DNA from: Lachnospiraceae bacterium
GTDB taxonomy: Bacteria > Bacillota_A > Clostridia > Lachnospirales > Lachnospiraceae
Direction: 5' to 3'
Length of the DNA: 14,200 nt
Assembly (NCBI GenBank): GCA_018365895.1
Contig: JAGZJD010000059.1
Location: 1 to 14,200 of the forward strand
Below the pieces are notes generated by a model. That model worked only from the letters and a program-made list of their open reading frames with translations, was not told where the DNA came from and ran no database searches. Numbering within the stretch: position 1 is the stretch's first letter; each line of letters opens with the position of its first letter. This document shows, piece by piece, positions 413 through 14,017 of this stretch. A program made the translations under genes and the position numbers.

Positions 413-1456
413 TTAATAATGTATTACGTTATCTGAATTCTGAATCGCCGTAATTACTTTCTGTGCTTCTGCTGAAGTCAAGTAATTCCAGGTTGTATCC
501 GGAACTATCTTTTTTAATTCTTCCCATTGCATATCTTTTATATATTGCCGCACGGTTGACGCACTGATAATTTTTCCTTCCTTTTCTTTTCTCGGTACTA
601 CAATGCAGTCAATATTGTTTTTTTCCAGTTCCTCCTTCATAATCCGGTTATAGAGCCCGGTCACTTGACTGAATGGCTCTTCTCCCACATATCTGCAGCA
701 TATCTGCAGTTCCCGGGCAATTCGGAAAAATACTGCCAGATCAAGCCTTGCATGACCTTCTATGACCGATTCCTCATCCTTCTGAAAATAACTAGGAAAT
801 GTAGCGTTACTGATGATATATGGCCCACTTTCATGCACCACTACATTGGAAAGATACTTCACACCCTCCTGCACCAGCTTCTTACGAATATGAAATGGCA
901 CAAGACTTGCATCTTCACTGACCACGAACAAATGCACAATATCATTTTCACATGCTGCTTTTTCCACCAGATACTGATGCCCAAGCGTAAACGGGTTGGC
1001 ATTCATCACAATCGCTGCTGCTTTTTTTCCATCACTGACCGATTTTTCCAGCTTTTTTAAATAATCCTGAAAGCCCGTCCGGCAGTTTTCCATAAAAACA
1101 ACACGATTGTCTGCCCTCGCAATTTCATAAAAGCCAAGATTTCCAAAGAACTTTGCCGAATCACACTTCGTATAAAGAAACAAATGATAATTTCCCCGCT
1201 CAAACTGAATCTGAATCAAATGACCCATAATCTGATTCAACAGCCCTTCTCCCTGGTGACTCTTGCTGACCGCAAAACAGCGCAAGGTATTACCAAAACA
1301 GCTTCCGGTTGCAACAGGATTATAGTCATCGTCATACAGACAACATATATAATCCAGTTTTTTATCTAATGTAATCCCTTCTGCTTCCAGTAATGTTTTT
1401 ACCTGTCTGATTCCCCAATGATTATTTTGATAAACCTGCGAAATCACATATCCCAT
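413..1456 (-). CDS. citC: [Citrate (pro-3S)-lyase] ligase CitC
   Basis: This 347-residue cytoplasmic enzyme uses ATP and acetate to acetylate the thiol of the prosthetic group on CitD, turning inactive HS-citrate lyase into the active acetyl form. The N-terminal ~125 residues look like a GNAT acetyltransferase fold (GNTLRCFAVSKSHQGEGLL, residues 55-73). The C-terminal part is the nucleotidyltransferase-like domain, with the ATP-binding motif NANPFTLGH at 152-160 and SASTVRQYI at 298-306. Length is normal for the family. The ATG at 1456 is preceded by AAAGGAG at good spacing. The gene begins 3 bases after the citXG stop, so it is the last gene of the citrate lyase series. No convincing terminator stem is visible after its stop. 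Family assignment is firm. Confidence 0.95.
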   Translation of the reverse strand: MGYVISQVYQNNHWGIRQVKTLLEAEGITLDKKLDYICCLYDDDYNPVATGSCFGNTLRCFAVSKSHQGEGLLNQIMGHLIQIQFERGNYHLFLYTKCDSAKFFGNLGFYEIARADNRVVFMENCRTGFQDYLKKLEKSVSDGKKAAAIVMNANPFTLGHQYLVEKAACENDIVHLFVVSEDASLVPFHIRKKLVQEGVKYLSNVVVHESGPYIISNATFPSYFQKDEESVIEGHARLDLAVFFRIARELQICCRYVGEEPFSQVTGLYNRIMKEELEKNNIDCIVVPRKEKEGKIISASTVRQYIKDMQWEELKKIVPDTTWNYLTSAEAQKVITAIQNSDNVIHY

Positions 1457-1459
1457 AAT

Positions 1460-2815
1460 CTATTGCTCCTTTAAGAAATACAGGAAATATGTAAAAGCCA
1501 GCAAATCCGCGCTGCCTCCAGGCGAAAGATTTTTACTGATAAATGCTCTATCAATGATTTCCAGCATATCTTCTTCCGGATATGGATTTTTTCCCAGTAT
1601 TTCTCTGATTTCTTCCGTCACCTGAAGCTGTGTTTTCCGATTGCTTCGTGCAATCAGATTGGTATCTACCGTAGACACCATCAATGCCAGCAAAACTCCA
1701 CATCCTGCCTGTTCCAGAGACAGTCCTTTTTTCAGCCCTTTTTCCAGCACCGGCAATCCCGTTTCAACAACAGCCGGAAAACCTTTTTCCGCCTGTCCGC
1801 GAATTCCTGTAATCCCATATTTTACATACAACTTTTCTCCAGTTGTTCCGGCATTTTCTTTCGTCACTTCTCGAAAATCATGTTCAACAAGCCCCTTTGT
1901 CATTGCAGCACATTCCCCGGATACTGCTTTAACATTTTTCCATTGGTCTCGTGGAAGACGTCCAAGAGCACCGCAAAGTATCCCAATAGAAAACAAGGCG
2001 CCTTTATGTGTATTTACTCCATTGGTCGCCTGATTCATTTCATAATCGGCAACTTTTCCTGTCCAGCGTAGCCTGCGAAAAGTTTCTTCCGGTGACTCCT
2101 GAGCGGTTTCCATTCCCAGCTGTGCACACTTCTGAAAATAAGGCCATAAAGCAGCTGCACTGGCCATAAAAGTAAAGCAGTCCATATCTTTATGACTTCC
2201 ACTATTTCTACAATCCACAAGCCCAGGCTTCGGAGTAGTGCACACCTCATACAACAGACTTCTGCAGGCCAGTTCTGCAATCTTCCGACTGTCCTGTTCC
2301 TGAAATTCTTTCAAAAGTAATTTTTCCGTCATATGCTGGAGTTCTGGTACTGAATGGGTTCTGTTTCTGGCACATTCCTTTGCCGGATTCCTGCAAATCA
2401 GACAAACTCTCGGACTTTCTCCGATTTCTGTACGTTCTATATGATTACCATTTTCATCAAGAACATCCATATCAAAAAGACGCCCAATTGACAGATTATT
2501 TTCAATTTCCGCTGTTATTTTTTTTATCTTCACGGCACTGCCTTTTACACAAAAATAACCTTCATTTCCTGTATCTTCGGAATAACTTTCCTGATGCAGA
2601 CACTCCACACCTGTACTGACAAGCTGCGTTTTTAAAATTTCACAGCCATATTCAAATGCACGGTGTATCAACCTGTTATTTTTAACTGGTCCGGCAATAT
2701 TCATGGTAAAACAAATCAGACCAGAAGAATATTTCTGCTGCAAAGACAACTGACGCTGCATACGCATTTCTCTTGCATCCAGCATTTCCACCAGTGAAAC
2801 TTCTTTTCCTGTCAT
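1460..2815 (-). CDS. citXG: CitX-CitG fusion: apo-citrate lyase prosthetic group transferase / triphosphoribosyl-dephospho-CoA synthase
   Basis: This 451-residue bifunctional maturation protein makes and attaches the citrate lyase prosthetic group. Residues 1 to ~160 are CitX, the holo-ACP synthase that transfers phosphoribosyl-dephospho-CoA to CitD; its signature GRLFDMDVLD is at 111-120 and PRVCLICRNPAKECAR at 135-150. Residues ~165-451 are CitG, which makes triphosphoribosyl-dephospho-CoA from ATP and dephospho-CoA; visible motifs are TPKPGLVDCRNSGSHKDMD (194-212) and NQATNGVNTHKGALFSIGIL (261-280). CitX and CitG are separate proteins in Klebsiella and fused in some bacteria such as Haemophilus. 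The ATG at 2815 has a GGGAG ribosome binding site. A 148-base gap with two strong dyads separates it from citF, much longer than other gaps in the operon. Confidence 0.94.
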   Translation of the reverse strand: MTGKEVSLVEMLDAREMRMQRQLSLQQKYSSGLICFTMNIAGPVKNNRLIHRAFEYGCEILKTQLVSTGVECLHQESYSEDTGNEGYFCVKGSAVKIKKITAEIENNLSIGRLFDMDVLDENGNHIERTEIGESPRVCLICRNPAKECARNRTHSVPELQHMTEKLLLKEFQEQDSRKIAELACRSLLYEVCTTPKPGLVDCRNSGSHKDMDCFTFMASAAALWPYFQKCAQLGMETAQESPEETFRRLRWTGKVADYEMNQATNGVNTHKGALFSIGILCGALGRLPRDQWKNVKAVSGECAAMTKGLVEHDFREVTKENAGTTGEKLYVKYGITGIRGQAEKGFPAVVETGLPVLEKGLKKGLSLEQAGCGVLLALMVSTVDTNLIARSNRKTQLQVTEEIREILGKNPYPEEDMLEIIDRAFISKNLSPGGSADLLAFTYFLYFLKEQ

Positions 2816-2857
2816 TTTGGCGTCTCCCTTTCACATTGTTTCCAGTTACTTATTTTT

Positions 2858-2891
2858 GTAGAGGGTCCGCCAGAAAATCGGACCACTCTAC
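2858..2891 (-). promoter_or_regulatory. Intercistronic hairpin between citF and citXG
   Basis: The arms 2858-2869 (GTAGAGGGTCCG) and 2879-2891 (CGGACCACTCTAC) pair over 12 base pairs with one bulged base and a 9-base loop. In the transcribed (minus) direction the stem is followed by an A-rich, not U-rich, stretch, so it does not look like an intrinsic terminator. A role in mRNA processing or in protecting the citDEF message is possible. That role is inference. Confidence 0.5.
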
Positions 2892-2912
2892 ATATCGTAT
2901 CAAATACGATAT
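2892..2912. promoter_or_regulatory. Perfect 9-bp inverted repeat, candidate operator
   Basis: ATATCGTAT (2892-2900) and ATACGATAT (2904-2912) are exact inverted copies around a 3-base centre. The dyad touches the hairpin at 2858-2891 and sits in the only sizeable gap among the lyase genes. It could be the binding site of a dimeric repressor or activator controlling the maturation genes, or a second RNA hairpin in tandem. I do not recognise the motif. Confidence 0.45.
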
Positions 2913-2963
2913 TTTAACACAACGAACATATGGCAGATTTCCGTTGCGATAAAAACTTTTTAT

Positions 2964-4526
2964 TTATTCTGCAAATTCAAATGGTTTAATCTGACGGACA
3001 ACATCCATAATTGTACCGTCACGTGCTTCAATAATACCTACTACACGGTCCGAAAACTGAACCTTTTCTGGTTCTCCAACAATAGAATATGCAATATCAC
3101 GTAGCTCTTCGATGGACTTTAACGGAATACAATCTGCAGCCTTTAATGCTTCCATAAGATCTGGTCTGCGTGGATTAACCGCTACACCATAATCTGTAAC
3201 TACAATATCAATGCTTTCTCCCGGTGTTGTAACAGTCGTAACATCAGAACAGATTGCCGGTATTCTCCCCTGCAGGAGCGGTGCAAGTACAATCGTACAT
3301 TTGGCTCCGGCAGCGGTATCCGGATGTCCACCCTGTGCTCCTGTAATCACGCCATCAGATCCCACTACTACATTACAGTTAAAGTTTACATCTACTTCCA
3401 ATGCGGCCAAAATTACATAATCCAGTTTATTAACAAAGGAACCTTTGTTGAACGGATTCGCGTATGCACCTGTGCTGATTCGGAAATGATTCGGATTCTT
3501 CACATTTTTAATTGCATCCAAATCGAAGTCCTGCGTATCTAACAAGCAGCGAACCATACCGCGATTCAGAAGGTCACACATCGGTTTTGTCAAACCGCCT
3601 ACACCAAATCCCATCTTGATTCCACGTTCTTCCATAATCTTGGTAAGAGAAATCGTAGATGCGATGGACGCGCCGCCCACACCTGTCTGATAGGAAAATC
3701 CTTCTTTAAAATAAGGTGTATTGGCAACTACCTGTGTACAATACTCTGCCATCAGAAGCTTTCTCTGATTTGTGGTCGGTTTTGCCGCTCCTATTGCAAT
3801 TTTTGAAGGATCTCCGATTTCATCAACTACACATACATAATCCACTCTCTGCATCGGAATATGTGCCGGAAAATTTGGAAACGGTACAAGACAGTCTGTA
3901 AGCGCAACAACTTTATCCGCATGATTTCCATCTACATGAGAATAGGAAAGGACACCACAATCCGCTTTACCGCCAATACCACGGCAATTTCCATAATCGT
4001 CACAGGTCGGCGTGCCGATAAAAGCAATGTCAATGTGTGTCTCACCGGTAATTACAGCTCTTACACGGCCGCCATGAGAACGCATGATTGCAAGCCCTTT
4101 GAGTTTTCCCTGTGAAATAGCTTCTCCAATAGCACCACGCACACCGGAAGATTCAATACTGGTAATTGTTCCGTCTTCAATCATCGGAACCAGTGGAGCT
4201 TGCGCTTTTCCAAGGGAGCTTGCGCAAATGGTAATGTCTTTCAGACCCATTTTATGAATTTCTTCCATTACCATATTTACAACTTTATCTCCATCTCTGA
4301 AATGATGATGGAAGCTGACAGTCATTCCATCATGTGCTCCGCATTTCACAAGTGCCTCATGAATAGAATCAACCAATTTACTCTCGGTGTTATTCATAAT
4401 CGGTTTTACATTGGAACCAACTTTTTTAAATTCCACACCATCTTTATAATGATTGCCCTGGAATACCTCTTTTCCGGTAATTTTCAGGATTTCTTCCGGA
4501 ATGTCTCTTCCTACTGCATTTATCAT
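2964..4526 (-). CDS. citF: Citrate lyase alpha subunit CitF (citrate:acetyl-ACP transferase)
   Basis: CitF (520 residues) swaps the acetyl group on the CitD prosthetic arm for citrate, giving citryl-ACP and free acetate. The sequence has the family blocks MTVSFHHHFRDGD (68-80), IESSGVRGAIGE (124-135), SHGGR (150-154), SYQTGVGGASIA and PFNKGSFVNKLDYVI, and ends in the usual IV-DYG-AVNPRRPDL region. The reading frame is open 27 codons further upstream. I chose ATG 4526 because AAGGAGGTGC lies just before it, it follows the citE stop by one base, and the protein then starts MINAVGRDIPEEI like other CitF proteins. It forms the cytoplasmic lyase complex with CitD and CitE. Citramalate lyase alpha subunits are close relatives, so citramalate as substrate cannot be excluded by sequence alone. 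Confidence 0.95.
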   Translation of the reverse strand: MINAVGRDIPEEILKITGKEVFQGNHYKDGVEFKKVGSNVKPIMNNTESKLVDSIHEALVKCGAHDGMTVSFHHHFRDGDKVVNMVMEEIHKMGLKDITICASSLGKAQAPLVPMIEDGTITSIESSGVRGAIGEAISQGKLKGLAIMRSHGGRVRAVITGETHIDIAFIGTPTCDDYGNCRGIGGKADCGVLSYSHVDGNHADKVVALTDCLVPFPNFPAHIPMQRVDYVCVVDEIGDPSKIAIGAAKPTTNQRKLLMAEYCTQVVANTPYFKEGFSYQTGVGGASIASTISLTKIMEERGIKMGFGVGGLTKPMCDLLNRGMVRCLLDTQDFDLDAIKNVKNPNHFRISTGAYANPFNKGSFVNKLDYVILAALEVDVNFNCNVVVGSDGVITGAQGGHPDTAAGAKCTIVLAPLLQGRIPAICSDVTTVTTPGESIDIVVTDYGVAVNPRRPDLMEALKAADCIPLKSIEELRDIAYSIVGEPEKVQFSDRVVGIIEARDGTIMDVVRQIKPFEFAE

Positions 4527-4527
4527 T

Positions 4528-5430
4528 TTACTGCACCTCCTTATATACACCGGATGCCTTAGCCAACTCCAGTGTACGTTTTGCACCATCATAAAATGCA
4601 ATATCAATCATCTTGCCGTCTACAGTAAATACCCCGATACCCTGTGCCTTTTTGGTTTCAATCTCATTCACAACCTTCTGTGCAAAAATAATATCTTTCT
4701 GGGATGGTGTGAAGATTTCATGCACAATAATAATCTGACGAGGATTGATAATAGATTTTCCATCAAATCCCATCAAATGAATTCCTTCCACATCTTTACG
4801 GAAACCTTCCATATTATTCAAATCCGTATAAACAGTATCAAAGCACTGTACGCCGGCAGCTCTGGCAGAAATGACCATCTGAGAACGGGCTCCCATTAAT
4901 TCTATTCCCGTACCTGTAATTTTCGTCTGAAGGTCTTTTGTGTAATCTCCTCCAGAAAGTGCGATACCAAATAATCTTTCAGAAGCAGTACAGATGTCAT
5001 AAGATTTTAACACACCTTTTGCAGATTCAATGGCAGCCATAATCAGAACACTTCCTTCTGGGCGCCCAAACTCCTTTTCAGCTGCTATGATTGCTTTTTC
5101 CACTGCTACAACATCTTCCGGACATTCTGTTTTCGGAATACGAATGGAATCACAGCCCCCTGCCACTGCGCAACGGATATCCTCTTTCCAGAGGTCTGTA
5201 TCTAGGCCATTGATTCGAACAACCTTTTCACATCCATGATAATCCAGTGTTTTCAATGCATGATACAGAGAAAATCTTGCTGCATCTTTTTGATTTTCTG
5301 CCACTGCATCTTCCAGATCCAGCATAATGGAATCCGGTTTATAAATATACGGGTCTTTGATCAAACTAGGTTTTTGAGCATTCAAAAACATCATGGTTCT
5401 TCTCAGACGTTTTTTATTTGGATAATTCAT
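4528..5430 (-). CDS. citE: Citrate lyase beta subunit CitE (citryl-ACP lyase)
   Basis: CitE (300 residues) cleaves citryl-ACP into acetyl-ACP and oxaloacetate in a Mg2+-dependent reaction. It is a TIM-barrel protein of the HpcH/HpaI and malyl-CoA lyase family. Visible motifs are RRTMMFLNAQKP (10-21), MLDLEDAV (36-43, acidic metal-site region), VRING (71-75), IRIPKTE (96-102), AAIESAKGV (132-140) and ALSGGDYTKDL (157-167). I chose ATG 5430 over the in-frame ATG six codons upstream because GGGGAGGTGC sits at the right distance before 5430. Its ATG overlaps the citD stop (ATGA), so the two are probably translationally coupled. The citF start is one base past its stop. Confidence 0.95.
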   Translation of the reverse strand: MNYPNKKRLRRTMMFLNAQKPSLIKDPYIYKPDSIMLDLEDAVAENQKDAARFSLYHALKTLDYHGCEKVVRINGLDTDLWKEDIRCAVAGGCDSIRIPKTECPEDVVAVEKAIIAAEKEFGRPEGSVLIMAAIESAKGVLKSYDICTASERLFGIALSGGDYTKDLQTKITGTGIELMGARSQMVISARAAGVQCFDTVYTDLNNMEGFRKDVEGIHLMGFDGKSIINPRQIIIVHEIFTPSQKDIIFAQKVVNEIETKKAQGIGVFTVDGKMIDIAFYDGAKRTLELAKASGVYKEVQ

Positions 5431-5726
5431 CGGATTGCACCTCCCCATGGCAAATCTTTAAACTGCTGCAGGGAACGGTATACCGCCCCCTCAATACGGG
5501 CTTTGATAGTACAGTCTAATGCACCTTTGTCCACAATTTTAATTTTCACACTGTCTACATCAAGATTTCTCAATGTTCCCATCGTCACTTTTTTTATCTG
5601 ATTTCCATACTGGTTCAGTACAGCACTTTCCAGTTCAAACTCAATGCCGCCGTTTCCAGCTTCTACAGTAACCTGACAGTCACTGGATTCCAATGTTCCG
5701 GCAATTGCCGGTCTGATAATTTCCAT
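5427..5726 (-). CDS. citD: Citrate lyase gamma subunit CitD (acyl carrier protein)
   Basis: CitD (99 residues) is the acyl carrier of citrate lyase. It carries the phosphoribosyl-dephospho-CoA arm installed by CitX/CitG and acetylated by CitC. It starts MEIIRPAIAGTLESSD, with Ser14 in the GTLES motif at the same position as the modified serine of the Klebsiella protein. The later VDDKGALDC-type block is present as KIVDKGALDCTIKARIE, and LPW lies near the C-terminus. ATG 5726 is preferred to an ATG 14 codons upstream because a GGAGGAG site precedes it and the extra residues do not belong to the family. It is the first lyase gene, and its upstream side now abuts the IS110 element, so its original promoter or co-transcription with the transporter may have been lost. 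Confidence 0.95.
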   Translation of the reverse strand: MEIIRPAIAGTLESSDCQVTVEAGNGGIEFELESAVLNQYGNQIKKVTMGTLRNLDVDSVKIKIVDKGALDCTIKARIEGAVYRSLQQFKDLPWGGAIR

Positions 5727-5764
5727 GGTAAAATCTCCTCCTAATATATAAGTGTAAGGTTCAA

Positions 5765-5885
5765 GCACCCAACAGCCAGTTGGGACTTATCCTTCTCATT
5801 GTTAAAGCTGTATAATGATTAAGCATCGGCCTGACAGATTTCTCCTTGGACCACTAGGTGTCCGCAGTAAAGCCAGTCAGCCAGC
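5765..5885 (+). ncRNA. Candidate IS110 bridge RNA in the left end
   Basis: Three nested or adjacent stems are visible: CCCAAC/GTTGGG (5768-5773 with 5779-5784, loop of 5); an outer CTGAC/GTCAG stem (5831-5835 with 5876-5880); and inside it a small hairpin GGAC...GTCC with a 3-base loop (5848-5863). A long stem enclosing internal loops on either side of a small hairpin is the layout expected of a bridge RNA binding loop. A perfect TATAAT lies at 5811-5816 without a clear -35. IS110-subgroup elements are known to encode such RNAs here; the exact ends and fold are not established. Confidence 0.45.
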
Positions 5886-6016
5886 TTATCATTTGCAGCC
5901 GTTCGATTTATGCAGGTTGAACTACCGTGATGTACGTTCGTTTGATACCCCAGGAGATGGAATAAGCAATGAGTGAAGCTGGAACCATGCAAATTCACTT
6001 TAGGAGGTACGTAAGA

Positions 6017-7231
6017 ATGTACAACGCAGTAGGTATTGATGTTTCAAAAGGCAAGAGCACCATTGCAGTCCTGCAACCCGCAGGTGTCATTATCAGAAAG
6101 CCTTTTGATGTATCCCACACTTCTCAGCAACTGAATGAACTTTCCAGTTATCTCAATTCCCTTGAGGGCGATACCAAGGTAGTTATGGAATGTACCGGCA
6201 GATACCATGAACCTATGGCAAATGCCTTACATAAAGCCGGACTGTTTGTCTCAATTGTCAATCCGCACCTGATTAAAAATTTTGGGATTAACTCCCTTCG
6301 CAAAGTAAAATCTGACCCTGCGGATGCCAATAAAATTGCCCGCTATACTCTTGACAACTGGCCTGAACTGCGTCAGTATTCAAGTATGGATGATACACGT
6401 ACTCAACTAAAAACATTAAATTCTCAATTCAGCTTCTTTATGAAGCAAAAAGTTGCTGCAAAAGCAAACTTGATTGCTCTGTTGGATAACACCTATCCTG
6501 GTGTAAACAAGCTCTTTGACAGCCCTGTCCGCAGCGATGGCAGCGAAAAATGGGTGGACTATGCTTACTCCTTCTGGCATGTGGACTGTGTCCGTAAAAT
6601 CGGCTTAAAAGCCTTTACAGAACGCTACAAAGCCTTTTGCAAAAAGCACCACTACAACTTCCAGCCTTTGAAGCCGGAAGAATTGTTCCTTGCCTCAAAG
6701 GAACTCATTGCGGTTTTTCCAAAAGAGAAAAACTACAAGCTGTTAATCCAGCAAAGCATCCAACAGCTGAACCTTGCTTCTGAGCATGTGGAGCAGCTTC
6801 GCAAAGAAATGGATGCACTTGCCGCTACACTGCCGGAATACGGTACTGTCATGGGCATATATGGTGTGGGCAAAACTTACGGGCCTCAGCTTATGGCTGA
6901 GATCGGTGACGTATCAAGATTTACCCACAGGGAAGCATTAACTGCCTTCGCAGGTGTCGATCCTGGCGTAGATGAGTCCGGTCAACGCAAATCTAAAAGC
7001 AATAGGGCTTCAAAGATCGGTTCTGCGAGGCTACGCAAGACACTGTTTCAGATTATGACTACCTTGCTTCAGAACGCCCCGCAAGATGATCCGGTCTACC
7101 GTTTCCTTGACAAGAAGCGTTCAGAAGGCAAGCCCTACTATGTCTACATGACCGCCGGCGCCAACAAGTTCCTGCGCATCTACTATGGCAAAGTGAAAGA
7201 GTGTCTGCGTAATTTAGAGCAGCCAGAATAG
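6017..7231 (+). CDS. IS110-family transposase (RNA-guided DEDD/serine recombinase)
   Basis: This 404-residue recombinase moves the surrounding element. The N-terminal RuvC-like DEDD domain shows GIDVSKGK (residues 6-13, first Asp), VVMECTGRYH (second acidic residue), and KSDPADANKIARY (the DxxD pair). A helical linker follows. The C-terminal Transposase_20 domain shows YGVGKTYGPQLMAEIGDVSR, then AFAGVDPG and SGQRKSKSN with KIGSARLRKTLFQ, which contain the serines among which the nucleophile is expected. An in-frame ATG exists 16 codons earlier, but ATG 6017 has TAGGAGG nine bases ahead and gives the usual MxxxVGIDVSK start. The frame is intact and normal in length, so the element may be active. 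It is antisense to the flanking operon. Confidence 0.93.
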   Translation: MYNAVGIDVSKGKSTIAVLQPAGVIIRKPFDVSHTSQQLNELSSYLNSLEGDTKVVMECTGRYHEPMANALHKAGLFVSIVNPHLIKNFGINSLRKVKSDPADANKIARYTLDNWPELRQYSSMDDTRTQLKTLNSQFSFFMKQKVAAKANLIALLDNTYPGVNKLFDSPVRSDGSEKWVDYAYSFWHVDCVRKIGLKAFTERYKAFCKKHHYNFQPLKPEELFLASKELIAVFPKEKNYKLLIQQSIQQLNLASEHVEQLRKEMDALAATLPEYGTVMGIYGVGKTYGPQLMAEIGDVSRFTHREALTAFAGVDPGVDESGQRKSKSNRASKIGSARLRKTLFQIMTTLLQNAPQDDPVYRFLDKKRSEGKPYYVYMTAGANKFLRIYYGKVKECLRNLEQPE

Positions 7232-7348
7232 CATTTTTCTTCATATCCCTTTCAATGACCGGCTATTAGGGCGGTCTTGAAGTTGTGCCCAAAACCATCT
7301 CAAAAAATTTTTTCAAAAAACACTTGACTTTTTATTAGCAGGCTTTTC

Positions 7349-8614
7349 TTAATAAAACAGTCCACCCAGATTAAAAAGGCCAAGAGCTGATAAAACCACA
7401 TTCAGCAGCACATTTCCAACCGAAAGAAGAAACAGCTGTTTAAACATTTTGTTCAGTTCATCATTTGTTGTTTCTTTTGCTGCAGAATAGGAAGACATGA
7501 TAATCGCACCACCTGTTGACAATGGACTGATTGCTGCCGCAAAGGATGTTGCCACAACTGCTGAAATCAGCTCCACATAATTTACACTGCCTGCAAAAGA
7601 TATTGCCACGTCTGACGCGATTGGGAACAGTGCCGGCATAACCACGCCTGTTGTAGAACTTACCCAGGATAAAATACCTGATGTTGCAGAAAGAATCGGT
7701 GTTGCTGTTTTTTCACTCATCATTCCTGTCAGGAAATTGGAAATCAGCTCAATTCCGCCAAGAGTATTGATAACATTAATCAGTGTCCCTACGCCACAGA
7801 TAAATACCAAGGTTCCCCATGGAATGCTTTTAATAGCTTTCTTTTCATCTGCACATCCCAGAAGGATCAGTACTGAAGCTACAACAAAAGCAAAAAGACC
7901 GGTATCCAATTTAAAACCAAAACAGCAAACTACCATGACAACAATTCCGATAATGGTAAATCTCTGTTTACGGTTAAAGTTTGGAATTTCAGAAAGCTTC
8001 AGTGGATTGTCTGCCTTTACTTTGTAGCTTTTAAATGCCACATACAAGATTAAGGTAAAGATAAAACCGGAAATCAATGTACTCAGAAACAGATGAAGTC
8101 CAAATCCAGAATATCCTAACGGGTCAGAAAGGCTTTTTGCAAGAACACCTGTCAAAGACAGCGGCGAAGCACAACCTGCATTCGCACCTAGTTTTGCATA
8201 CAACGCAGTGGCGATTGGATTGATTCCCATCTCAAATGCCAGATACATTGCAAATGTAGTCATTAGAATTCCGGCTGCAATATGTCCTGGTCCGATTGCA
8301 GAAATAAATGCGGACAATACAAACATAAGGACCGGAATCAGTACCGTATTTTTTCCTACCAGCGCTACTATTTTTTTGGAAAAAAGTTCCAGTGTCCCAT
8401 TATTTGATGCCATACCAAACAAAAAGGTAACGCCGACAAGTGTCACAAACATAGAGCTGCTGAAACCAGCGGATATCTGCTTTGCACTCATATCACCTAT
8501 GGTACCCAAAATAAATGCTACTGCTAAAGAAAGAAAACCCAGATTAACTTTTTTAATAAATCCAATTGCTACAACGATTACCAATACAATCAAACTGATA
8601 ATTGCAAGATTCAT
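7349..8614 (-). CDS. MatC/SLC13-like di/tricarboxylate transporter
   Basis: This is a 421-residue integral membrane protein with about 10-12 hydrophobic segments over the whole length, and no other domain. The N-terminal half (NLGFLSLAVAFILG, SAGFSSSMFVTLVGVTFLFG, NNGTLELF, GPGHIAAGILMTTFAMYLAF, GANAGCASPLSLTGV) resembles the MatC N-terminal domain of Rhizobium malonate/dicarboxylate carriers. The C-terminal half repeats the pattern with SSTTGVVMPALFPIA and SPLSTGGAIIMSS, typical of the ion-transporter superfamily. It very likely imports the organic acid used by this operon; its position next to an isomerase, a hydratase and citrate lyase suggests a tricarboxylate or unsaturated dicarboxylate. 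The ATG at 8614 has GGGGAG upstream, 13 bases after the PrpF-like stop. The energy-coupling ion is not predictable. Confidence 0.85.
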   Translation of the reverse strand: MNLAIISLIVLVIVVAIGFIKKVNLGFLSLAVAFILGTIGDMSAKQISAGFSSSMFVTLVGVTFLFGMASNNGTLELFSKKIVALVGKNTVLIPVLMFVLSAFISAIGPGHIAAGILMTTFAMYLAFEMGINPIATALYAKLGANAGCASPLSLTGVLAKSLSDPLGYSGFGLHLFLSTLISGFIFTLILYVAFKSYKVKADNPLKLSEIPNFNRKQRFTIIGIVVMVVCCFGFKLDTGLFAFVVASVLILLGCADEKKAIKSIPWGTLVFICGVGTLINVINTLGGIELISNFLTGMMSEKTATPILSATSGILSWVSSTTGVVMPALFPIASDVAISFAGSVNYVELISAVVATSFAAAISPLSTGGAIIMSSYSAAKETTNDELNKMFKQLFLLSVGNVLLNVVLSALGLFNLGGLFY

Positions 8615-8627
8615 GATGAACTCTCCC

Positions 8628-9779
8628 CTATTTAATATGTGCAGTTCCGTCCATCAGCAGGTTTGCTGTACGGAATCCAAATGTATCTGCTACAACCGGC
8701 TCTTCACCGTTTTCCTCATAATCTACCCCACATTCCAGAACACCACTTGGATGTCCGATACGGATAAACTGTGTGTTTACATTTTCAGAAAGTACCTGAT
8801 TAACAACACTTCCAGGTACAACTGCCGCTGCAGCTGTACACATGGCCCCTGTCATGGCATAGCTGGGATGCGCTTTCTGCATGGACATCATACGTGAGAG
8901 CAGATCTATCTGCTCTTTTGAAACAGAAATCCCTTCTGCTGTCACATAATCTGCTGCCTCTGCAACAAATGTCATTTTCGGAATCCCGGGAGTTTCCCAT
9001 GCAGAACGGGTATAATCTTCAATTAACCCAAGCTTCACAGCTGCCATCCCTCTTACGTTTTCCAGCAGTGTCAGCTTATCAGCATCCGCATTTAATTCTT
9101 CCGGAAGTTCAAGGCCTGTCATCCCCAAATCCTTTGCTTTTACAAATACAAGGGGATTCGCTGCATCTACAATTGATACTTCTATTTTTCCAAAATTTGG
9201 AATATCTACAACATCCACTGCTTTTCCCGTAGGAAGCAGTCCATTTCCAAGAGTCCCAGCCGGTTCAACAAATTTCAGTTTAATCGGAGCTGCTGTACCC
9301 GGAACACCGGCAATGGCAAAATCCCCATCATACACCACACTGCCATTTTCTGTCTGAACATCTGCAATGATGACCTTATTGGTATTCGTGTTAAATATTC
9401 TTACCGAAGTCATTCCCTCTTCTGCCTGAATAAGACCTCTTTCAATAGCAAACGGTCCCACACCAGAAGAAATATTTCCACAATTTCCTTTATAGCTTAC
9501 CAGGTTTTTATCTACTGAAACCTGTGCAAATGTGTAATCTACATCTGCATCTTCTCTTGCAGATTTTTTTACAATCGCAACTTTGCTAGTAACAGACTGC
9601 GCCCCTCCAAGTCCATCAATCTGTTTTTTATCAGGACTTCCCATCATGCTCAGAAGCAGAGAATCCCACTGACCCTTATCTTCCGGAAGATCCTCCTCCA
9701 GAAGATAAATACCTTTACTCGTTCCTCCACGGATGATTATAGCCGGAAGAAAGAATCTGTTTTTATCTTCATTGAACAT
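8628..9779 (-). CDS. PrpF/YbhH-family cis-trans (aconitate-type) isomerase
   Basis: This 383-residue cytoplasmic protein belongs to the PrpF family (diaminopimelate epimerase-like double fold), which includes 2-methylaconitate isomerase PrpF, 3-methylitaconate isomerase Mii, oxalomesaconate tautomerase and E. coli YbhH. Motifs are [13 protein letters not shown] (14-26), [16 protein letters not shown] (55-70) and [20 protein letters not shown] (98-117), with [12 protein letters not shown] further on. Lys66 and Cys100 are 34 residues apart, as are Lys73 and Cys107, which I recall as active-site residues of Shewanella PrpF. That enzyme was reported to bind and isomerise trans-aconitate. ATG 9779 has GGGGAGG upstream, and the gene overlaps the hydratase gene by 11 bases, so the two are likely coupled. 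Family is sure; substrate (trans-aconitate favoured) is inferred from neighbours. Confidence 0.85.
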
Positions 9780-12063
9780 TTTTTCTTCCTCCCCTGTCTA
9801 TACTGTGGACTCTGTTATAATTAATCAGAGAACCACAGCGGATAATTTCTTTTTCTTTCTCTGTCAAAGGTGCAATTGCAAGAGAAAGTTCCTTAATCTC
9901 TTTTCCAATCACATAGGCCGGAATGTCACTCATCTCACCATCCAGTGCTTTTTTAATATCCGGAACAAAGATATAATCATCTTCTTCGAAATCCGGAATT
10001 CCGTTCATGACAAATGGGACCATACCCCAGTTAATCAGATTGGAACGATATCTCTTCGTTGCATATTCCATGGTGATATTTGCTCCACCAAGAAGAACCC
10101 TCTGACAGGAAGCAGCCTGTTCTCTGGCGCTTCCATCACCAGGTTTTACAGCATAAATCGTACTGGAAAGATTAATCTTTTCTTCCACAATTTCTTCAAA
10201 GCCGGAAATATTTTGAATTTTGGAAATAATCTCTGCAACCTCTGCCGGACAGTTTCCTGCTTTTCTTGCCTTTTCATTATCCATTACCGCCTTTGCTTTT
10301 CCCACATATTCCGGAACACGGCGGCTGAGTGTAAATTCCGCAAGTCCCATAGGGTTGGATCGGAAAGAACCTGTTTCACCGGAAGGGATCAGTTCGTCTG
10401 TAGTTGTAACCGAATCCGTGATAAATGCACATACCTTCAGAAGCATATGATCATTTAATTTCGGAAGTTTCGGCCAGTCTTTAATGTTCGGCCCGCAAAT
10501 GACAGGTTCTTCTGAACATCCCTGACCTACTCCCCAGAATACACGGTGCTGGTACGCTTTTGGATTATAATGATATTCCGGACATTCATATTCGTAACCG
10601 GCTTCATCTGCTGCCATAATCCGTCCTCCATTTGCAGACGAAACTGCAATGGAACGTGCATCCATCAATGCCACACTTGCCAGCTGTCCATTACCTGGTT
10701 TAGAGCCTTCTCTGTTCGGGAAGTTTCTGGTGGTATGTCTGATAGAAAGTCCGTTGTGTGCCGGTGTGTCACCAGCTCCAAAACATGGACCGCAGAATGC
10801 TGTCCGAATAGTTGCCCCTGCTTCAATCAGATCTGCCAGTGTCCCATTTCGTGTCAATTCCAGCATAACGGCCTGGCTGCTTGGATAAATTCCCAGTGCA
10901 TATTCATCTGTTCCGGTACTCTTTCCTTTCAGAATATGTGCCGCTTCCATAATATTGCTGTATGTACCTCCGGCACAGCCTGCAATCGTTCCCTGATCTG
11001 CATAAAGAGCTCCATCACGCACCTTATCTCTAAGATTCAGCCGGAGATTCGGATTTTTAATAAGTTTAGAAGCATTTTCTTCAACTTCATGAAGAATATC
11101 TTCCATATTTTCATTTAAGTCACGTATTTCATATCCATTTGACGGATGAAATGGCAGAGCAATCATACTGTGAATAGTGGACAGATTTATATAAATACAT
11201 CCGTCATAATGGGCAATCTCAGCCGGATTAAGCTGTCTGTAATCTTTCGGGCGTCCATGCTTTGTCAGATACTCTTGCGTATCTTCATCTGTACGCCAGA
11301 TACTGGACATACAGGTTGTTTCCGTTGTCATAACATCAATACCATTACGATAATCTGTTGAAATGGAAGAAACTCCAGGTCCTACAAATTCCATAACTTT
11401 ATTTTTCACATAACCATTTTTAAATACAGCACTTACAATGGCTATTGCAATATCCTGCGGTCCGATACCCGGGTTTGGTTTTCCATCTAAATATACTGCA
11501 ATAATTTCCGGATATTCTGCATCCCAGGTCTGTTTTAACAGCTGCTTAACCAGCTCGCCTCCGCCTTCACCAACTGCCATTGTTCCCAATGCGCCATAAC
11601 GTGTATGACTGTCTGAACCAAGAATCATTTTTCCACATCCGGCCATACTTTCACGCATATACTGATGAATGACTCCCATATGAGGCGGCAGATAAATACC
11701 GCCATATTTTTTACATGCAGAAAGGCCAAATAAATGGTCGTCTTCATTAATGGTTCCGCCTACTGCACAAAGGCTGTTATGGCAACAGGTCAACACATAT
11801 GGGAGCGTAAATTCTTCAAGGCCGGAAGCTTTTGCGGTCTGTATAATTCCAACATAAGTCAGATCATGACTGGTTATAGAATCAAACTTGATTTTCAGTT
11901 GTTCTTCATTCCCACTCACATTATGGGCCTGTAAAATACTGTAAGAAATCGTTCCTTTATGGGCTTCTTCTTTTTTTCTCAACAGTTCCGAATCTGCCTG
12001 AGCTTCCGCAACCAATGTGTTGCCGTTCAAAAGATAGACGCCTTCATCATAAAGCTTAATCAT
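9769..12063 (-). CDS. ybhJ: Aconitase-superfamily hydratase, YbhJ-like
   Basis: This 764-residue single-chain [4Fe-4S] hydro-lyase is close in length to E. coli YbhJ (about 750). The large aconitase domains carry GSDSHT (149-154), TTETTC (246-251), [14 protein letters not shown] (357-370) and [10 protein letters not shown] (423-432). Cys363, Cys424 and Cys427 match the three cluster ligands of aconitase in order and near spacing, though the usual SCTN is [21 protein letters not shown] follows. The C-terminal swivel domain has [10 protein letters not shown] and [13 protein letters not shown]. The frame is open 40 codons further upstream, but ATG 12063 with AAAGGAG and the start MIKLYDEG fit the family. 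First gene of the operon, it probably hydrates cis-aconitate or a related unsaturated acid; forming citrate would feed the lyase downstream. Confidence 0.88.
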
Positions 12064-12072
12064 GGTTTTCTC

Positions 12073-12091
12073 CTTTACTGAACGTTTATCC
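12073..12091 (+). repeat. Copy 1 of a repeated GAACGTT motif in the divergent region
   Basis: CTTTACTGAACGTTTATCC here matches CTTTACGAACGTTCATACC at 12220-12238 at 17 of 20 aligned positions. This copy lies in the hydratase leader and overlaps its ribosome binding site, which accounts for part of the CTTT match. It is a candidate regulator contact site. Confidence 0.35.
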
Positions 12092-12109
12092 GGGAAATGC
12101 GCAATTCCC
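12092..12109. promoter_or_regulatory. Near-perfect 18-bp dyad in the hydratase leader
   Basis: GGGAAATGCGCAATTCCC is an inverted repeat with one mismatched pair. It lies between the predicted transcription start (about 12134) and the ribosome binding site (about 12070-12076) of the hydratase gene. It could be an operator for a dimeric regulator acting downstream of the promoter, or a leader hairpin. No regulator family is recognised. Confidence 0.4.
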
Positions 12110-12139
12110 TGATTGCAAAGGTACCTTGCCTGTGAATTC

Positions 12140-12168
12140 ATTATAACAAAACAATATTTGACAATCAA
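12140..12168 (-). promoter_or_regulatory. Sigma-70-type promoter of the hydratase operon
   Basis: On the minus strand TTGATT (12163-12168) and a perfect TATAAT (12140-12145) are spaced by 17 bases. They would start a transcript near 12134 with a 70-base leader to ATG 12063. This is the only strong promoter seen ahead of the minus-strand series, so it probably drove hydratase, isomerase and transporter, and possibly the lyase genes before the IS110 insertion. Confidence 0.65.
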
Positions 12169-12219
12169 ATTCATAGTTTTCATTAAATTTATTCATTTTT
12201 TTCATTTATTATGTTAACT

Positions 12220-12238
12220 CTTTACGAACGTTCATACC
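12220..12238 (+). repeat. Copy 2 of the GAACGTT motif with palindromic core, candidate LysR operator
   Basis: CTTTACGAACGTTCATACC contains the perfect palindrome GAACGTTC (12226-12233), extendable to 14 bases (12223-12236) with one mismatched pair. It lies about 90 bases upstream of the predicted hydratase transcription start, within the range where LysR-type activators bind, and between the divergent promoters. It is the best candidate recognition site for the adjacent LysR regulator. Confidence 0.4.
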
Positions 12239-12361
12239 ATTTTTTGTACTAATATCACAAAAATTTTATTTTTCTTTAATAATATTACATTATTTATTCA
12301 ATTTTGTTTTTTCTTTAATATTCATATTTTTAATTTTTTTCATTCATATAAAGAATTATTG

Positions 12362-12390
12362 TTGAATTTGGTTTTTAGACATGATATACT
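12362..12390 (+). promoter_or_regulatory. Promoter of the LysR-type regulator gene
   Basis: TTGAAT (12362-12367) and TATACT (12385-12390) are separated by 17 bases. Transcription would begin near 12397, leaving only about 15 bases before the ATG. The AAGGAG ribosome binding site at 12398-12403 just fits inside this very short leader. Confidence 0.55.
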
Positions 12391-12411
12391 TTTGAAAAAG
12401 GAGACTTTTCT

Positions 12412-13335
12412 ATGGGATTTCGAGAATTTCAATATATCATTGCAATTGCAAAATATCAGAATATAACAAAAGCGGCAGAATCTCTATATATTGGACAACC
12501 TACATTAAGCAAATTTCTTAAAAGTTTGGAAGATGAACTTGGAATCAGTCTTTTCCGGAAAGCAGGCCATAAATATCATCTGACCTATGCCGGAGAACGA
12601 TATCTAGAAAAAGCAGAACAGATTTTACAGTTAAAATCAGATTTGGATGTAGAATTAGCTGACATTGTTAAACGGAATGTCGGTGTGCTTCGTCTTGGTT
12701 TTCCGACCATGCGTTGTACCTATATGTTGCCTGCTATTCTCCCAGCGTTTCATGAAATATATCCTAATATAAAAATACAAATTGTGGAAGGACCTTCTGC
12801 TGAGCTTGACAAAAAACTATTAAGCATGGAAGTAGATCTCGCTTTTTATAATCAACGTTTAGGAGACACTAATCCTTTTATCCAGACAGAAATTCTTGGA
12901 GAAGAAGAACTTCTTATTTGTGTAAAAAAGGGACATCCTATGGAACGCTTTGCTCAACCCAATCCGGCTAGCCAATATCCCAAACTGGATATTCATTTAT
13001 TGCAAAACGAAACTGTTCTTTTAATGTTAAAGAATCAACGGACTCGTCAGATTATCGATCAACATCTCCATCAACAAGGTGTGGTCCTAAAAAATATACT
13101 GCATACCAGCAATATTCCTGCAATTATGGAGCTTATTTCTGTAGGGTATGGTGTTAGCTTTTTATTCGAACCACATATATTACATCATACTTTTAAGAAT
13201 CCTATTTCTTGTTTCAGCTTTGGAGAACCACGAACTACTTCTGCATTAGTCGTTGCAACCCGAAAAAACTGCTATCTTCCTTCTTTTGCCAATGACCTCA
13301 TTGAACTGGCCAAACGATTATATATTAATATATAA
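12412..13335 (+). CDS. LysR-type transcriptional regulator
   Basis: This 307-residue DNA-binding protein has the standard LysR layout. The N-terminal winged helix-turn-helix spans about residues 1-60 (NITKAAESLYIGQPTLSKFL at 17-36, then LEDELGISLFRK). A linker helix follows, and a substrate-binding-protein-like effector domain occupies about 90-300 (GVLRLGFPTMR, FHEIYPNIKIQIVEG, DLAFYN, LISVGYGVSFL). It is divergent from the hydratase gene with a 348-base gap, the classical arrangement for a LysR activator of the opposing operon. E. coli ybhD sits in the same way beside ybhHIJ. The likely inducer is the transported organic acid or an intermediate. ATG 12412 is supported by AAGGAG at 12398-12403. 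Confidence 0.92.
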   Translation: MGFREFQYIIAIAKYQNITKAAESLYIGQPTLSKFLKSLEDELGISLFRKAGHKYHLTYAGERYLEKAEQILQLKSDLDVELADIVKRNVGVLRLGFPTMRCTYMLPAILPAFHEIYPNIKIQIVEGPSAELDKKLLSMEVDLAFYNQRLGDTNPFIQTEILGEEELLICVKKGHPMERFAQPNPASQYPKLDIHLLQNETVLLMLKNQRTRQIIDQHLHQQGVVLKNILHTSNIPAIMELISVGYGVSFLFEPHILHHTFKNPISCFSFGEPRTTSALVVATRKNCYLPSFANDLIELAKRLYINI

Positions 13336-13629: not shown

Positions 13630-14017
13630 ATCCTAACTGCGAATTGGACCAGGTCCCGTATCCGGGCAGGTGCCTGGAGCCCCGGGCCAGATATGCCTTT
13701 CCCTTCTCCCCATAGAAAAAGGGATTGTCTCCATCCACGATTCCCCGCTACATGGGAAGGGCCGCGCTGCCGGCCACAAAGGGCGCTGCAAAGGAAGTGC
13801 CAGTTACAGCCTCATATCCGCCGCCGCTTCCGGCTGTCACGATGTCCGCTCCCGGAGCCATAAGGTCCGGCTTTACCTGCTGTGTCTGGCGCGTAAAACC
13901 GCGCCCTGAAAAATCCGCATACGATTGGTAGGAATCATCATAGGCGCCCACGGATATCACATTGGCAATCGTGGAAGGGATGATAAGGGTGGGTTCTGCA
14001 TGGTCGTTCTCCGGCAT
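13630..14017 (-). pseudogene. Subtilase (peptidase S8) fragment with in-frame stop
   Basis: On the minus strand the reading gives VISVGAYD, YADFSGRGF, VKPDLMAPGADIVTAGS and GTSFAAPFVAGSAAL. The last contains the catalytic serine motif GTS-(M/F)A-P of subtilases (Ser75 counted from 14017). A TAG at 13748-13750 interrupts it, but the same frame continues as RGIVDGDNPFFYGEKGKAYL and RGSRHLPGYG, which is the expected C-terminal part of clostridial S8 proteases. The catalytic Asp and His regions are missing, and three stop codons in a row precede 14017. It is therefore truncated at the start and broken inside. It is clearly richer in G and C than its surroundings, suggesting origin from another genome or a very different gene. 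Confidence 0.8.

Follow-up and report, generated by a model that had tools for sequence, protein, structure and literature searches.

A predicted trans-aconitate fermentation operon combining a PrpF-family isomerase, a YbhJ-type hydratase and citrate lyase genes in a Lachnospiraceae bacterium

trans-Aconitate is abundant in maize, sugarcane and grasses, and the source cited for its fermentation by Acidaminococcus fermentans is reportedly Hartel and Buckel (1996). The route reported for this organism leads from trans-aconitate through citrate and oxaloacetate to pyruvate, and the gene table for strain VR4, in the accessible part of that report, names MatC carriers, aconitases and citrate lyase, and no isomerase (PMC3035267). 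Aconitate isomerase activity has been demonstrated for TarA, a PrpF-family protein whose gene lies under a divergent LysR gene, and the same paper already predicts from TarA homology that several gut bacteria, including Acidaminococcus and Sporomusa, use trans-aconitate (PMC11495376), so gut anaerobes have been proposed as users of this acid before. In E. coli, ybhD regulates ybhH and has been tied to L-malate (PMC9068703). Here, we describe a gene cluster in 14,200 nucleotides of contig JAGZJD010000059.1 (the window) from a Lachnospiraceae bacterium, probably a gut anaerobe, in which genes for a carrier, a PrpF-family isomerase and a YbhJ-type hydratase accompany a full set of citrate lyase genes. 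We consider it likely that this cluster is an inducible trans-aconitate fermentation operon.

The genes named in an initial annotation of the window, a carboxylate carrier, a PrpF-family isomerase and an aconitase-superfamily hydratase in line upstream of the citrate lyase set, with a divergent LysR gene, were all found among its open-reading frames, open and oriented as described, with Pfam and NCBIfam matches far above chance. The hydratase gene (9769..12063, minus strand) is an orthologue-level match to NF008503 (1270.3 bits, cut-off 641), its product is 62% identical to E. coli YbhJ, and it starts with the ATG at 12063, residue 41 of the longest open-reading frame, where the NF008503 match begins. 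It overlaps by 11 bases the gene of the PrpF-family isomerase (8628..9779, minus strand; PF04303, 448.6 bits, cut-off 27), which is separated by 13 bases from that of the MatC/CitMHS carboxylate carrier (7349..8614, minus strand; PF07158, PF03600), so that the three are close-packed. Beyond an IS110-family transposase gene (5969..7231, plus strand; PF01548, PF02371, NF033542 over cut-off), which stands between the carrier gene and citD, the minus strand carries citD, for the citrate lyase acyl carrier protein (5427..5726; TIGR01608, 109.7 bits, cut-off 63.5; start chosen by ribosome-site spacing, the longest frame reaching 5768), citE, for the beta subunit (4528..5448; PF03328), citF, for the alpha subunit (2964..4526, the longest frame reaching 4607; TIGR01584, 656.3 bits, cut-off 501.45), a gene for a fused CitX-CitG that makes and attaches the prosthetic group (1460..2815; PF03802, PF01874; TIGR03124 and TIGR03125) and citC, for citrate lyase ligase (413..1456; TIGR00124, 326 bits, cut-off 262). 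CitD, CitC, CitX and CitG are all present, each over its NCBIfam cut-off. In this window, the transcription unit is now broken by the IS110 element, and the "complete operon" of the initial annotation, which had merely alluded to this gene on the opposite strand, holds for the gene set and not for its continuity. No copy of the element was present in the loci fetched from other genomes and plasmids gave only a 19% partial match, and its exact ends are for that reason not fixed.

In the proposed pathway, the MatC/CitMHS carrier would import trans-aconitate, the PrpF-family enzyme, judging from homology and context, would convert it to cis-aconitate, and the YbhJ-type hydratase would turn cis-aconitate into citrate. 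Activation and loading of the lyase fall to CitC and CitXG, after which CitDEF splits citrate into acetate and oxaloacetate; this is established chemistry for these families, whose genes are present here. Control probably lies with the LysR protein, which would sense the acid and switch on the divergent operon in the way that TarR does in Bacillus velezensis.

The trans-aconitate assignment is supported by clusters elsewhere in which PrpF, an aconitase and citDEF stand together with no insertion sequence between them (L044, L031, L235, L236, L242, L243). The initial annotation had named consistent separation of the trio from citDEF in relatives as the observation that would count against it; these clusters, and the presence of citF in all ten sampled genomes with a window-type PrpF, show the opposite. 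An uninterrupted run in Oribacterium sp. NK2B42 (L044) consists of LysR, PrpF, MatC, YbhJ, citD, citE and citF genes, citX and citG-like genes, two unrelated genes and citC, and a second, in a metagenome-assembled genome (MAG) labelled Paenibacillaceae (L031), of LysR, MatC, PrpF, YbhJ, citD, citE, citF, a CitXG-like gene and citC. The Paenibacillaceae label may be wrong, since the CitF of L031 sits among those of Lachnospiraceae. In Negativicutes, where 21 PrpF regions were fetched, some picked for a nearby citF, L235, L242 and L243 contain citDEF, a different type of aconitase, PrpF and a carrier of the YbhI type, and L236 contains LysR, PrpF, a YbhI-type carrier, YbhJ, a CitMHS carrier, citD, citE and citF; L244 has citDEF and, about 5 kb further on, an aconitase and PrpF, and at the end of L237 there is a weak match to citD. 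These clusters vary in gene order and in carrier family, indicating that the grouping was not simply copied from one to another. The aconitase that replaces YbhJ in L235 scores over the cut-off of the curated aconitate hydratase model NF005558 (915.7 bits, cut-off 612), and the predicted hydratase step finds its best support here in this exchange of one aconitase for another. Between the aconitase and PrpF genes of L235 lies a GatC-like PTS permease gene (EIIC-GAT; 7882-9246, plus strand), an odd neighbour for an acid pathway.

Linkage is not universal, and this weighs against the proposed assignment. Window-type PrpF modules do not adjoin cit genes in L006, L007 and L026, where the trio is present with no cit genes nearby, nor in L182, L183 and L226-L231; in L008, about 1.2 kb lies between YbhJ and PrpF. 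Conversely, among the 38 Lachnospiraceae citF regions fetched (40 citF rows listed), YbhJ directly adjoins citDEF in four (L144, L152, L161, L169), of which L144 alone includes PrpF in the cluster, L152 (genome G121) having PrpF and MatC about 14 kb away. YbhJ also adjoins citDEF in L013 and L019, and a fifth genome, G005, has the pair at a contig end (L019, L192). YbhJ beside citDEF with no neighbouring window-type PrpF, as in L161, L169 and L192, maybe reflects fermentation of isocitrate or cis-aconitate. Such a cluster raises the question of whether the main substrate in the window is one of these acids, fermented by the lyase set and the aconitase with PrpF as a side function, an explanation that gains from the pairs with no PrpF within about 10 kb (G239, L161; G005, L019 and L192; G004, L169). 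The overlap of the PrpF and hydratase genes in the window, and the LysR and carrier genes that flank window-type PrpF in most loci seen, speak for PrpF as an integral part, and we regard this explanation as improbable.

Further support for trans-aconitate as the substrate comes from co-occurrence with citrate lyase, together with A. fermentans VR4 and the TarA precedent. Among 299 Lachnospiraceae genomes (PrpF E <= 1e-40, CitF E <= 1e-80), PrpF was found in 10 and citF in 35, with both in 7 of the 10 PrpF genomes (Fisher p 1.6e-5, relatedness ignored). PrpF of the window type (at least 66% identity) occurred in 4 of the 299 (G009, G061, G121, G260; the sample was centred on G009, which is thus not a random draw), all 4 with citF, compared to 35/299 overall (Fisher 1.6e-4, relatedness ignored). 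In 300 genomes from the class of Colibacter (Negativicutes), PrpF (E <= 1e-60) was found in 52 and citF in 114, with 43 having both and 9 of the 52 PrpF genomes having no citF (Fisher p 4.4e-13, relatedness ignored); window-type PrpF (63-68% identity) was found in 6, each with citF, compared to 114/300 overall (Fisher 2.8e-3, relatedness ignored). Nine genomes, chosen non-randomly through trio or cit loci, all had a citF match, eight of them over the cut-off.

This co-occurrence also bears on whether the operon might make trans-aconitate or serve regulation, like tbr of Bacillus thuringiensis, rather than consume trans-aconitate. A PrpF-family isomerase does produce trans-aconitate in B. thuringiensis, and Bacillus tbrA was not among the 60 records listed of 337 plasmid records. 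Association with citrate lyase fits consumption, and we give synthesis or regulation very little credence.

The YbhJ family was surveyed by a scan of genome contigs, from which 80 loci were kept of at least 572 confirmed (at least 595 matched stretches); these, five named loci and the window made up the 86 loci annotated against reference proteins. Within Lachnospiraceae, the family of Oribacterium, YbhJ was over the curated NF008503 cut-off in 276 of 299 genomes. A citrate synthase gene, identified by Pfam, adjoins YbhJ in L029, L039, L040, L043, L058 and L070 and lies one gene off in L038, and genes of the isocitrate dehydrogenase family directly adjoin it in L003, L005, L032, L035, L036 and L038. 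Of the 23 genomes below the YbhJ cut-off, the 21 with no strong match were used for comparison, and citrate synthase was found in 6 of them and in 20/21 genomes with YbhJ (Fisher p 1.4e-5, relatedness ignored). From these neighbours, this presence in most genomes and this co-occurrence, YbhJ would seem to serve Lachnospiraceae as their ordinary aconitase. The position of YbhJ beside citrate synthase and isocitrate dehydrogenase, and the curated aconitate hydratase in its place in L235, also support trans-aconitate as the substrate.

Of the residues with catalytic roles in pig aconitase, the three cluster cysteines, H101, H147, D165-S166-H167, E262, R447, R452, S642 and R644 (pig numbering) are kept in the window hydratase, cysteine C363 having been assigned by motif and the other positions by alignment. 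Two points count against an aconitase function: D100, N258, Q72 and S643 of pig aconitase are replaced by C94, V244, H66 and A646, and E. coli YbhJ is termed a catalytically inactive paralogue in one paper (PMC4054840). The four departures also occur in YbhJ rows linked to citrate synthase and so do not set the operon copy apart. At residue 93, the window, Acidaminococcus and Oribacterium rows read TCCHN, and the E. coli, citrate-synthase-linked, Pusillibacter and L236 rows read TNCHN. The NCBIfam name for the family is merely "hydratase". On a broader view, to which we give an even chance, YbhJ would be an unrecognised true aconitase family, ordinary in Lachnospiraceae and relatives, and citrate lyase operons would form a graded series, from citDEF alone (citrate) through citDEF with YbhJ (isocitrate or cis-aconitate) to those with PrpF and a carrier as well (trans-aconitate). 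They would have been put together on more than one occasion among anaerobes of gut and rumen, and E. coli YbhJ would be what remains of such a module, conserved and still working.

The initial annotation had also offered a citramalate route from itaconate or mesaconate. In this reading the acid, one of these two or a methylated relative, would be hydrated to citramalate, which the lyase would split into acetate and pyruvate. The window CitE lends it some weight, as its best NCBIfam match, the citrate lyase equivalog TIGR01588, falls below the cut-off (361.8 bits, cut-off 443.4) and it also matches RipC; on the same equivalog, A. fermentans CitE is under the cut-off (345.5), E. coli CitE over it (452.1), and two methylaspartate-linked CitEs score 336.6 and 305.7. 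Methylaspartate ammonia-lyase was found in 15 of 291 genomes from the class of Oribacterium, and citDEF in 8 of the 14 regions fetched from these 15 genomes. At the hydratase position, these operons have a pair of genes for proteins of about 185 and about 285 amino acids (family judged by length), and no aconitase. CitF trees were built from 51 rows and then from 53, two long-branch rows having been removed and four added, and in both the 8 methylaspartate-linked CitFs fell within one 12-row group (100/99) that excludes the window. In the 53-row tree, the window CitF grouped with that of A. fermentans (34 rows, 100/100). E. coli CitF, on a long branch, scores 499 bits against the window, within the 390-509 of the citramalate-type CitFs, a point against a simple assignment to citrate. 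The CitFs of the PrpF clusters L235 and L236 are placed beside the citramalate group (14 rows, 100/97), a position that favours the citramalate route, and those two lyases may act on either citrate or citramalate. For the window, the CitF trees disfavour citramalate, which we consider improbable. Fermentation of trans-aconitate through citrate to acetate and oxaloacetate, as the initial annotation read the cluster, is supported by the clusters in other genomes and by the citF co-occurrence, its biochemistry not being new.

Alignment of the PrpF-family isomerase with Shewanella PrpF places its K66 and C100 opposite K73 and C107, whose roles have been published. The protein is below the NCBIfam equivalogs for PrpF (341.5, cut-off 440.55) and 4-oxalomesaconate tautomerase (372.3, cut-off 440), and neither function was assigned. 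In a tree of 46 rows, many of them picked through YbhJ, the window PrpF and the copies from Acidaminococcus, Oribacterium and L031 shared one group of 16 rows (100/99). By our annotation, an aconitase-superfamily gene lies within 4.5 kb of PrpF in 41 of the 46 rows (29 YbhJ, 5 other aconitase, 7 LeuCD-like), and near 8 of the 13 PrpF places in the Lachnospiraceae sample, which were picked by PrpF alone. The closest solved structure is 3-methylitaconate isomerase, a point against trans-aconitate as the substrate, and with Shewanella PrpF next to it this could suggest that PrpF acts on 2-methylaconitate or 3-methylitaconate in a 2-methylcitrate cycle or dimethylmaleate pathway. Against this, the hydratase scores too low to be AcnD (61 bits, cut-off 1420), no prpB or prpC lies within the window, and PrpFs linked to two-subunit LeuCD-like genes group apart (6/7 rows, 100/97), the seventh, L177, being a long branch elsewhere; a methylated substrate is accordingly highly improbable. 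Two-subunit LeuCD-like hydratase genes adjoin PrpF in L186, L187 and L232-L234, arrangements that resemble the dimethylmaleate pathway of Eubacterium barkeri. In L177 (G212), divergent CitE and CitF accompany PrpF and a split LeuCD-like hydratase, where maybe another acid is fermented by an isomerase-hydratase-lyase set. In Enterocloster, PrpF was found in one of four genomes of the genus of G306, at 46% identity; a named E. bolteae MAG had YbhJ only, at 64%, and E. bolteae proteins at 78% could not be placed. No PrpF was found in either of the two Colibacter and Megasphaera genomes.

LysR, PrpF, MatC and YbhJ genes follow a single order in the six Negativicutes genomes with window-type PrpF, although G648 has an additional isocitrate-dehydrogenase-like gene among them. 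One of them, G673, was identified as A. fermentans VR4 (module L230), and its PrpF, adjoining MatC and an aconitase, is the obvious candidate for the aconitate isomerase of that organism. A second A. fermentans PrpF (43% identity) shares locus L241 with a further YbhJ, an aconitase, MatC and isocitrate dehydrogenase.

The LysR gene of the window (12412..13335, plus strand; Pfam HTH_1 and LysR_substrate) is divergent from the hydratase gene, the gap between their starts (12064..12411) being the divergent promoter region. LysR genes adjoining window-type PrpF score 270-395 bits against the window LysR, and the majority of the remaining LysR genes from the loci fetched score below 155. A T-N11-A palindrome between LysR and PrpF is perfect in L226, L228 and L230, has one mismatch in L227 and three in L229, and is a candidate LysR operator in the Acidaminococcus-type loci (L226, L227, L228, L230). 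The best site of this type in the window has two mismatches and was rejected as not significant (shuffle p 0.12). Rfam gave no matches in the window. Beyond the LysR gene, a subtilase fragment (Peptidase_S8; 13748-14017, minus strand) has neither start nor end domains. The window PrpF protein occurs on 40 contigs, the longest being 14,200 bases, and the window therefore most likely comes from a metagenome.

A cluster of PrpF, aconitase and citrate lyase genes was not described in the titles and abstracts found in searches of the open literature, subscription papers being mostly outside that search, and in the literature searched the operon form, the gene candidate for the A. fermentans isomerase and the role for YbhJ look new. 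The isomerase step of a pathway described in 1996 gains a gene candidate, the YbhJ family gains a proposed function, and the arrangement predicts which anaerobes ferment trans-aconitate.

Compared to known systems, A. fermentans VR4 shares the LysR-PrpF-MatC-YbhJ module and a CitF of the same 34-row group, but its citDEF (L247) lies about 240 kb from the module, whereas in the window the two adjoin. The tarRAB genes of Bacillus velezensis likewise comprise a divergent LysR regulator, a PrpF-family aconitate isomerase and a carrier, but the carrier is of the MFS family and there is no hydratase or citrate lyase of their own, the product passing to central metabolism. In E. coli, ybhD-ybhHIJ matches the window in its LysR, PrpF-family, carrier and YbhJ genes, but YbhH is very distant (E. 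coli and Citrobacter YbhH form a branch of 2.32 in the PrpF tree), the YbhI-type carrier is a DASS protein, judged by the L236 relative, and no citrate lyase adjoins; the suggested extension to ybhHIJ holds only in part, through the 62% identity of YbhJ. The citCDEFXG operon has the same full lyase and maturation set, but the window has an isomerase, a hydratase and a MatC carrier ahead of it instead of a citrate carrier, and its CitX and CitG are fused. Overall, the cluster is a new arrangement of known types of parts on a known pathway.

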